64,000 bases of DNA from Roseococcus pinisoli (GTDB lineage: Bacteria > Pseudomonadota > Alphaproteobacteria > Acetobacterales > Acetobacteraceae): NCBI RefSeq assembly GCF_018413645.1, contig NZ_JAHCDA010000004.1:310001-374000 (forward strand). The letters run 5' to 3'. Both the position numbers and the translations under genes were made by a program. Under the pieces are notes generated by a model. The model had not been told where the DNA came from. It ran no database searches and saw only the letters and a list, made by a program, of their open reading frames with translations. The first letter of the stretch is position 1; each line of letters begins with the position of its first letter. Positions 57,763-60,431 of the stretch are shown in pieces.

Positions 57763-57838
57763 GGGCGCTTAGCTCAGTTGGTAGAGCAGCTGACTCTTAA
57801 TCAGCGGGTCGTAGGTTCGAGCCCTACAGCGCCCACCA
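57763..57838 (+). tRNA. trnK: tRNA-Lys (anticodon CTT)
   Basis: GGGCGCTTAGCTCAGTTGGT opens the gene, the anticodon loop CTCTTAA has CTT at 57796-57798, TAGGTTCGAGCCCTA is the T arm, and AGCGCCC, A73 and CCA close it. 76 nucleotides with encoded CCA. Its 3' half is partly repeated at 60396-60431, marking it as the attachment site of a former integrative element. Confidence 0.97.
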
Positions 57839-57853
57839 CTTCCTCCCTTATCT

Positions 57854-58290
57854 TTACCGCCGAACATTTACTCCGCACGGGGTAAAGTTTTGGAACGTTC
57901 CATAATTAGTTGGCTTGCGCGCCTTCAGTGCCGTCAGAACCACTACATTGCTGACCGCAGGCGGCGCCTTCTCCCATTTCTCGACACCACCGAGGGCTAC
58001 TTCGCCACGCCGGGGCAGATAGACGTCCAGGATCTTCCGCATCTGGTCGACAGAGCTGCAATCTGCGGGACAGTGCCCCCGGCTATCGCCAGCATGACCG
58101 TAGAGTCTGCAGGGTGGCATTGGCCTGGAAGGGCCGCCCCTCATATTGCCGAGGAAGCGCCCGCGCGGCCGTCCGAGTGATATCTGTAGAGCTTCTGGGT
58201 CTTAGGCGCGAGTTTCCCAGAGGGCGGTCTGCCCGGATAGAGCGCGCTGAGGTCATCCTCCAGCGCGCGGGCGCTCGCCTCCGTACGCCA
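57854..58290 (-). pseudogene. Decayed tyrosine-type integrase
   Basis: Three fragments in different minus-strand frames resemble a phage-type integrase. Upstream, DDLSALYPGRPPSGKLAPKT then QKLYRYH looks like the core-binding domain. In another frame, DSTVMLAIAGGTVPQIAALS matches the H-x-L-R-x-T-x2-T/L-A helix region near the active site. In a third, RKILDVYLPRRGEVALGGVE then KWEK matches the C-terminal tail after the catalytic tyrosine. The middle of the catalytic domain is missing. The gene points at the adjacent tRNA-Lys, as integrases usually do. It is certainly non-functional. Confidence 0.7.
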
Positions 58291-58606
58291 CATGCCGTCC
58301 CGCCCTCGGCCGCCGGCTATCGCACCTGATGGCGGCATCCACGGCCGCCTTAAGAGACCGATTGAGAATGTTTGTGGCAACGCCGCTTATGGTGCTTCAA
58401 GCCTGGATATGAACCCGAGAGACCCGAATGTCGCTCGCGGAGCTCACACAATCCTCGTGCTGGTCATGGCCTGCCAACAACCGACCCAGGCAAGGCCGGC
58501 GACGCCATTACCATCGGCGATGATACTTTGATTGGACAGCAATAGGCGGAGTGCGGGCCGCGTGTCCGCATCGCACAGGTGCAGCGAAGCTCAAGGGACC
58601 GTAACC
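58291..58606. other. Non-coding island DNA between integrase remnant and permease
   Basis: 316 bases of somewhat lower GC than the flanks. Short open frames on both strands show no family resemblance. The last 20 bases contain the ribosome binding site (AAGGG) of the permease gene. It may hold eroded cargo. Confidence 0.4.
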
Positions 58607-59539
58607 ATGACCGCTGCCCCCATCATCAACCGCCCAATGACCTCGCACGAATGGGGAATGCTGATTGCGCTTTCCGCGTTGTGGGGTGGATCGTTCTTCT
58701 TCACCGATATCGCCTTGCAAGCCTTGCCACCCTTCACACTGGTGCTCCTACGCGTCGCCGGCGCTGCGCTCATCCTCAATGCAACAATCCCGCTGATGGG
58801 CCTGCGGCTTCCGACGGATGCTCGCAGCTGGGTCGCTTTTTTCGGTATGGGCTTTCTCAACAATGCCGTGCCCTTCTGCCTAATCGTCTGGGGTCAGACC
58901 CAAATCGACTCCGGCCTTGCCGCGATCCTCAACGCCACCACGCCGCTTTGGACAGTGATCGTTGTGCATTTCCTCACGGCTGAGGAGAAAATGACCGGCA
59001 ACCGCCTCGCAGGCGTGGTGATCGGCCTGATCGGCGTAACTGTGATGATCGGTCCTCAGGTGTTCGACGGATTAGGCGCAACGATCCTGGCCCAGCTGGC
59101 CGTGCTGGGCGCCGCGATTTCCTATGCCTTTGCAGCGCTGTTCGGCCGTCGTTTCCGCCGGTTGGGCGTGGCGCCGATGATTACCGCCACCGGCCAGGTC
59201 ACGGCCTCCACGCTGATGTTGATGCCGATCGCGCTGTTCGTTGACCATCCCTGGACGCTTGCAATGCCGGGCTTGTCGGTGTGGGCAGCGGTGCTCGGAA
59301 TTGCAGCTCTCTCCACCGCGCTGGCTTACGTGCTCTATTTCCGTATTCTCGCCACCGCCGGCACCACCAACCTGATGCTGGTGACTTTTCTCATTCCGGT
59401 CAGCGCCATTCTGCTCGGTGCGTTGGTGCTGGGCGAACGCCTCGATACCAAGCAGGTCATCGGCATGATGCTGATCGGCATGGCACTCGCCGCCATCGAC
59501 GGCCGGGTCATGAGAAAATTTCGGCCCAAAACGGCCTAA
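58607..59539 (+). CDS. EamA/DMT family transporter
   Basis: 310 residues from ATG at 58607, with CAAGGGACC before it. About ten membrane helices in two EamA repeats: GMLIALSALWGGSFFFTDIA starts the first and LAQLAVLGAAISYAFAALFG the second. VLGERLDTKQVIGMMLIGMA is the characteristic end of the family. These permeases export amino acids, metabolites or drugs; the substrate is unknown. Codon use is less GC-extreme than in neighbours, consistent with its location in the tRNA-Lys island. Confidence 0.92.
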   Translation: MTAAPIINRPMTSHEWGMLIALSALWGGSFFFTDIALQALPPFTLVLLRVAGAALILNATIPLMGLRLPTDARSWVAFFGMGFLNNAVPFCLIVWGQTQIDSGLAAILNATTPLWTVIVVHFLTAEEKMTGNRLAGVVIGLIGVTVMIGPQVFDGLGATILAQLAVLGAAISYAFAALFGRRFRRLGVAPMITATGQVTASTLMLMPIALFVDHPWTLAMPGLSVWAAVLGIAALSTALAYVLYFRILATAGTTNLMLVTFLIPVSAILLGALVLGERLDTKQVIGMMLIGMALAAIDGRVMRKFRPKTA

Positions 59540-59551
59540 GAGAACGCGCGC

Positions 59552-59583
59552 CGCCCGTCTTCCTCGCGGGGGCGGGCGTTTTT
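59552..59583 (+). terminator. Rho-independent terminator after the EamA gene
   Basis: CGCCCG and CGGGCG form a stem around a 15-base loop that can pair further, followed directly by TTTTT. A classical intrinsic terminator 12 bases after the stop codon. Confidence 0.8.
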
Positions 59584-59669
59584 GCGGTAAGAATAGCCAG
59601 TCAGCCGCCCGAGCTGGCGCCGACTAACACTCTTGCGCCGACGAGTTCACGACTGGACGGAGGTCACCA

Positions 59670-60302
59670 ATGGGCAAGGTGCGCGTAACGGGTTTTGCGG
59701 TATCCACCGACGGCTTCGGCGCCGGTCCGGACCAGAGCCTGGAACATCCGCTCGGCAAGCGGGGCGGGGAGCTGATGAATTGGTTCTACCCGACCCGGGC
59801 CTTTCGATCGATGATCGGGAAGGACGGCGGGACGGACGATCGCTTCGCAAGCGCCGCGATGGAAGGCTTCGGCGCCTTTATCCTCGGTCGCAACATGTTC
59901 GGGCCTGCCGGCGACGATTGGGGCGGGCCTGACTGGAAAGGCTGGTGGGGCGATGATCCGCCGTATCACGCGCCGACCTACATCCTGACTCACCACGCAC
60001 GGGGCCCCATCGTGATGGAGGGCGGGACGACTTTCCATTTCGTCACCGGCGGGATCGAAGCTGCACTCGCTCAGGCCAAGGCCGCCGCGGGCGAGCTGGA
60101 CGTGAAGATCGGCGGCGGCGTTTCGACGGTCCGTCAGTACCTGCTCGCCGGCGCGATCGACGAGATGCATCTGGCAATGTCGCCCGTCTTTCTGGGCCGT
60201 GGTGAATCCCTGTTCGCAGGCATTGACCTGCCCGGTCTCGGATATCGGGTGACGGAGGCGGTCCCGACGGAGCTGGCGACGCACGTCATGCTAAAACGCT
60301 GA
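59670..60302 (+). CDS. Dihydrofolate reductase family protein (RibD C-terminal-like)
   Basis: 210 residues with GGAGG before the ATG. MGKVRVTGFAVSTDGFGAGP is the opening strand of the DHFR-like fold, FILGRNMFGPAGDDWGGPDW the cofactor region, and DVKIGGGVSTVRQYLLAGAI the second NADPH-binding segment. Proteins of this YyaP/RibD-C type are NADPH-dependent reductases of unknown substrate, not housekeeping DHFR. Second cargo gene of the tRNA-Lys island. Confidence 0.9.
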   Translation: MGKVRVTGFAVSTDGFGAGPDQSLEHPLGKRGGELMNWFYPTRAFRSMIGKDGGTDDRFASAAMEGFGAFILGRNMFGPAGDDWGGPDWKGWWGDDPPYHAPTYILTHHARGPIVMEGGTTFHFVTGGIEAALAQAKAAAGELDVKIGGGVSTVRQYLLAGAIDEMHLAMSPVFLGRGESLFAGIDLPGLGYRVTEAVPTELATHVMLKR

Positions 60303-60395
60303 CCCGTGTCATCGCACGGCCCAACTCGAAGGCTGCTTGCCCGCACGCAGGATCAGCTGTTCCGGGGGGCCTCCTGGCGGGCAATTCTAAATTCC

Positions 60396-60431
60396 TAATC
60401 AGCGGGTCGCAGGTTCGGGCAGCGCCCACAT
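60396..60431 (+). repeat. Partial copy of tRNA-Lys 3' half (right attachment remnant)
   Basis: The stretch TAATCAGCGGGTCGCAGGTT continues TCGG and then CAGCGCCCACA. It matches the tRNA-Lys sequence from the anticodon to the 3' end, with one base change and a 6-base gap in the T arm. It is the expected direct repeat left at the far side of an element that integrated into the tRNA gene. The copy cannot fold as a tRNA. Confidence 0.8.

Follow-up and report, generated by a model that had tools for sequence, protein, structure and literature searches.

What occupies the DNA directly downstream of the tRNA-Lys(CTT) gene of Roseococcus pinisoli, and how did it arrive there? The question was addressed in a stretch of 64,000 nucleotides, here called the window, corresponding to positions 310001 to 374000 of contig C7 in the 4.79-Mb genome. 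The interval 57839-60430 is very probably the remnant of an integrative element that targeted tRNA-Lys(CTT) and has since decayed. This reading is based on the order and orientation of the tRNA and its 3' fragment, the relic of an integrase, a foreign base composition, the lack of full-length close matches to the cargo genes in congeners, and integration at this tRNA in congeners as well. The features of the locus are given in Table 1.

Table 1. Features at and downstream of the tRNA-Lys(CTT) gene (window coordinates)
Feature	Position	Strand	Basis
tRNA-Lys(CTT), intact; regenerated integration target	57763-57838	+	ARAGORN
Tyrosine recombinase C-terminus relic, frame-split, pointing at the tRNA	57968-58101	-	Profile and tblastn
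IS4/5-type insertion sequence left-end relic (end and start of the transposase frame)	58353-58428	+	Matches to insertion sequences of congeners
EamA-family (DMT) transporter gene, 310 aa, intact	58607-59539	+	PF00892, E = 2.5e-35
Likely intrinsic terminator after the transporter gene	59540-59584	+	Stem with T run
RibD_C-domain reductase gene (dihydrofolate reductase family protein), 210 aa, intact	59670-60302	+	PF01872, E = 2.1e-10
Distal attachment site: displaced 3' half of the tRNA, damaged	60392-60430	+	Alignment to the tRNA; starts in the anticodon loop

The original prediction placed an intact tRNA-Lys at the left end and an imperfect 36-base copy of its 3' half at the far end, and both were found. 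With gaps allowed, 39 nt of the distal copy aligned to the last 45 nt of the tRNA, with 6 bases absent in two gaps and a few changes, and the ungapped alignment covered 28 nt at 89% identity to the tRNA. The local alignment score of the copy was 49, compared to 26 for the next best match elsewhere in the window. A 22-mer of the tRNA, searched with up to 3 mismatches, occurred within the window only in the tRNA itself and at 60396-60417, and none of 100 shuffles produced such a match, so the copy is not a chance resemblance. When run on the window, ARAGORN did not call the copy as a tRNA. The copy lies downstream of the intact gene in the same orientation, and its start in the anticodon loop is shared with the copies in the islands of congeners described below.

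Between the tRNA and the first cargo gene, two minus-strand pieces in different frames resemble a tyrosine recombinase C-terminus; they match it at about 58045-58101 and 57968-58057 and include a stretch that we take to hold the catalytic tyrosine. The recombinase family was reached through one of these pieces (51 aa, 57905-58057), which matched in 61 of 385 genomes of the class at an E value of 1 or better, the own genome included. The best match outside the own genome was a protein of G227 (E = 5.4e-4) carrying PF00589 (E = 3.5e-7), and the frame of the weak match in G147 (E = 0.24) also holds a member of the G227 recombinase family. Searched against plasmids, the G227 protein found tyrosine recombinases or site-specific integrases by annotation in 25 of 30 rows among the matches listed. 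A profile was built from 14 proteins, namely, the one from G227 and 13 of 29 further loci (the first 14 minus one with an in-frame stop). Among the 1434 six-frame pieces of the window with 15 aa or more, the two minus-strand pieces ranked first and second with this profile, at the consecutive positions 176-193 and 196-225 (E values of 0.13 and 0.027); the scores are low, 10.0 and 7.8 bits, for a relic of only about 45 to 50 codons. Because the family was found through one piece, only the other is an independent test, and its match can be taken as independent confirmation. With one recombinase of the family as the tblastn query against the whole window, the relic gave the single significant match (E = 1.5e-5), followed by a match at 3.7.

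Other searches for the integrase were negative. Pfam scans of single open reading frames and of the six frames with stops as X gave no integrase match in the interval. Built on 40 integrases from nine genomes within the genus (one sequence being a 51-aa fragment), a second profile placed neither relic piece among its first twelve and ranked another piece of the region, 58086-58316, third at E 1.2. In tblastn searches, open reading frames near the tRNA in 15 congeners together with three insertion-sequence loci reached a best E value of 0.007, judged to be chance, and 19 reading frames from integrase loci reached 0.09; of these frames, 5 came from congener islands at tRNA-Lys and the other 14 include spurious overlapping frames. 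The relic pieces themselves gave chance matches or none against plasmids. The broken integrase pointing at the tRNA, as it had been described from the sequence, is upheld by the two ranked pieces and the tblastn match.

The predicted less extreme GC content was evident in the comparison with the flanks. The GC content of 57839-60431 was 62.6%. Across 79.8 kb, 721 overlapping windows of this size averaged 68.8% (sd 2.45), and none was as low. Within the interval, GC was 60.8% in the transporter gene, 65.4% in the reductase gene, and 61.5% ahead of the first cargo gene. Third-position GC of the two cargo genes, at 0.756 and 0.782, was also below the 0.82-0.94 of eight neighboring genes.

The EamA permease and the reductase had been proposed as intact cargo, and both genes are full length with the expected domains. 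The reductase matched no NCBIfam family; it belongs to the RibD_C family, and its role as a true dihydrofolate reductase is only putative. The segment with the likely terminator, 59538-59590, folds at -28.5 kcal/mol (z -2.0), with 8 of 200 shuffles equally good. The EamA and RibD_C proteins are 70.5% and 65.7% identical, respectively, to full-length homologs on plasmids (Methylobacterium radiotolerans and Pelagibacterium). Relative to these distant homologs, divergence is mostly at silent sites, with dN of 0.22 for EamA and 0.26 for RibD_C and dS of about 1.5 and 1.4, near saturation. Both genes may have been kept for a benefit, as originally suggested, but this silent-site excess mostly records selection that preceded the insertion. 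Of 72,556 plasmid records, 102 matched the interval, all at 60-80%, and the best 20 of the 102 matched the cargo genes only. In 59 other genomes, with five candidates taken per genome, the best DNA matches of each cargo gene lay outside the genus at 69-72% (G022, G034, and G035). The 20 congeners, with the same number of candidates per genome, yielded nothing beyond short fragments and partial matches to EamA, which reached 73% over 363 nt in G019.

The interval also holds the relic of an IS4/5-type insertion sequence, an addition to the original prediction, which did not mention one. It aligns with the left ends of such elements in G001 (81% over 75 nt), G010, and G016. The transposases of the fuller relatives in G010 and G016 carry PF13340 (DUF4096) and PF01609 (DDE_Tnp_1) in the two proteins tested.

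The same tRNA gene serves as an integration site in related genomes. The gene upstream of it encodes a lysine-aminomutase-like protein (TIGR03822) and is linked to tRNA-Lys in 19 of 20 congeners, the exception being G017, which is 57% complete. Among 80 named loci with this upstream gene, tRNA-Lys was present within 1.2 kb in 15, several of them from genomes already counted as congeners, and absent in 65, six of which have under 1.2 kb of sequence available; judging by these loci, the linkage is apparently confined to the genus. The DNA downstream of the tRNA was read in 16 congeners, 15 of them with 0.9-18.5 kb each, and in addition G001; in G005, G013, and G018, no more than about 100 bases follow the tRNA before the contig stops. 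A second copy of the tRNA 3' end, 45-46 nt long, was found on the same contig 5.8 kb downstream in G006, 33 kb in G010, 30 kb in G012, and 9 kb in G019, and on another contig in G003 and G016; in G005, other contigs carry two pieces of 50 nt (88%). The copies of these six islands all start in the anticodon loop. The congener island loci are L101, L102, L103, L104, L105, L106, L107, L111, L206, and L260.

Open-frame integrases were present in five of the six islands, that of G003 reaching the cutoff only jointly with a neighboring match. They fall into three sequence groups, G003 with G010 (65% identical), G006 with G012 (63%), and G019, which is 32-33% identical to the G006 and G012 proteins. 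The G003 integrase has the same orientation as the relic, and its frame ends about 100 nt from the tRNA. Past the distal copies of three islands, the sequence matches DNA near the tRNA in congeners in which no copy was found in the stretch read (G015, G009, G011, and G004). G006 matches G015 (base 453 after the copy versus base 38 after the tRNA), G019 matches G009 (45 versus 453), and G003 matches G011 (89 versus 49) and G004 (91 versus 32). These junctions are close but not exact: the first matching bases lie 31-90 nt away, or 452 nt on one side in two pairs. G010, G012, and G016 showed no such match near the tRNA among the congeners read. The tRNA and the displaced copy have different T-stems in G006 and G019, which is expected if the element supplied a new 3' half. 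In G010 (L102 and L103), the first 60 bases after the tRNA are identical to the first 60 after the distal copy, an identity that suggests tandem elements or a longer repeat. tRNA-Lys(CTT) is therefore a recurrent integration site in the genus, with integrases of three sequence groups besides the relic. The islands share with the R. pinisoli interval the target and the start of the copy; they differ from it in their 45-46-nt copies, in their open-frame integrases, none of the five with a convincing match to the relic, and in size, the four islands that lie entirely within one contig spanning 6-33 kb.

An empty site in which the tRNA runs straight into the sequence at about 60432 had been predicted, and it was not found, either beside the tRNA in the 16 congeners read, in whole-genome searches of 20 congeners (no match to the first 118 bases after 60431 among the matches listed), or among the 80 named loci that have this upstream gene. 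G008 and G001, the nearest relatives at about 86% DNA identity, lose synteny at the tRNA and regain it at 68743-68748, with different intervening sequence of 3.2 kb in G008 and 1.5 kb in G001. G008 is the stronger witness, since the G001 assembly is fragmented into 780 contigs and its locus is split over two contigs with overlapping but nonidentical ends. Because synteny resumes only there, 60432-68742 is not the ancestral flank, and the right flank was rearranged too. These 8.3 kb encode a TctC-type receptor, an OAH sulfhydrylase, and an ABC transporter with best family matches, below the cutoff, to the nitrate/sulfonate/taurine type.

The element may have been larger, reaching about 68742; two insertions, tandem or composite, would then meet at the damaged tRNA copy, which would be an internal attachment site. 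This would leave the mechanism unchanged and alter only the extent. We regard this extension as unlikely. In its favor, the whole of 57848-68742 is nonsyntenic with the two nearest relatives, and tandem islands are described in the part of the Islander report available to us (PMC4383910). The receptor gene (60549-61574) also fits, with a counterpart of 82-83% on contig C12 of G008, whose context is matched on contig C1 of the R. pinisoli genome without the gene. Homologs in nine other congeners (about 72-75%) had none of the G008 flanks within up to 1.5 kb, and the receptor gene could be either a relocated native gene or a case of differential loss. Against a larger element, the GC content of 61575-68742 is 69.3% and thus host-like, the OAH sulfhydrylase has counterparts elsewhere in eight of nine congeners searched, and no second tRNA copy was detected in 19.9 kb from 59901, either at E 0.01 or with an ungapped pattern that also misses the known copy, although a more decayed copy could escape. 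It is also conceivable, but in our estimate quite doubtful, that the region 3' of the tRNA is a composite of the decayed element and a segment, 60432-68742, assembled from host-like genes, including the receptor gene moved from C1.

Two further explanations dispense with integration into the tRNA. If the far copy were the leftover of a tRNA duplication and the cargo had arrived otherwise, for example, via an insertion sequence, the insertion sequence relic inside the interval and the damage to the copy would be accounted for; this origin is very improbable given that the copy, like those of the congener islands, starts in the anticodon loop and that the integrase relic points at the tRNA. That native genes of ordinary origin lie beside a chance tRNA-like match is hardly credible in view of the low GC content, the tRNA repeat not reproduced by shuffling, the integrase relic, and the few matches to the interval in congeners, and no supporting point was found for it.

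Under the preferred reading of a decayed tRNA-targeted element, recombination between the element's attachment site and the tRNA-Lys(CTT) 3' half, carried out by the element's tyrosine recombinase and probably with the crossover in the anticodon region, would have restored the tRNA and pushed the old 3' half to the far end. Most of the integrase gene would then have disappeared, with at least one frameshift in what was left; an insertion sequence would have arrived and mostly left again, and the far copy would have lost its 6 bases while the two cargo genes survived. We infer that the far copy marks the end of the element, that a larger body was lost, and that the events took this order; the exact extent of 2.6 kb is likewise inferred. 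Integration and decay, as originally proposed, are upheld, and the deletion of most of the body is deduced from the absent integrase N-terminus and the small size. With its own integrase gone, the remnant is not expected, judging from its gene content, to excise or transfer.

Elements of this design are known. The available part of the Islander report describes an island as an intact tRNA gene with a same-orientation displaced 3' fragment downstream and a tyrosine integrase (PMC4383910). The interval resembles this layout in the tRNA, the displaced fragment from the anticodon, the tyrosine integrase, and a length over 2 kb (2.6 kb in a range of 2-200 kb), and differs from it in that the integrase is only a frame-split relic and the fragment is damaged. 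It would therefore fail the integrase-ORF filter of Islander, as far as that filter is described there, and is a remnant and not a working island. In Sinorhizobium meliloti, according to the portion of the source available, the tRNA-Lys(CUU) gene 039 is an integration hot spot with direct 3'-end repeats of 46 and 49 bp (PMC11476347). The isoacceptor is identical and the repeats likewise derive from the tRNA 3' end, whereas the insertions reported in that part of the source are prophage sized (one of 137.5 kb, apparently two elements) and lie in another bacterial group. tRNA fragments left by integration are also noted in the accessible text of PMC9897764. A literature search of partial coverage returned no paper title on islands at tRNA-Lys(CTT) in Roseomonas or Roseococcus.

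Such tRNA islands are already described, and the interval adds an ordinary, decayed example, which taken alone has little significance. If the composite reading were true, the tRNA site would draw in host genes as well as foreign elements. The recurrent integration at tRNA-Lys(CTT) in the genus is useful for annotation and for locating intact elements.
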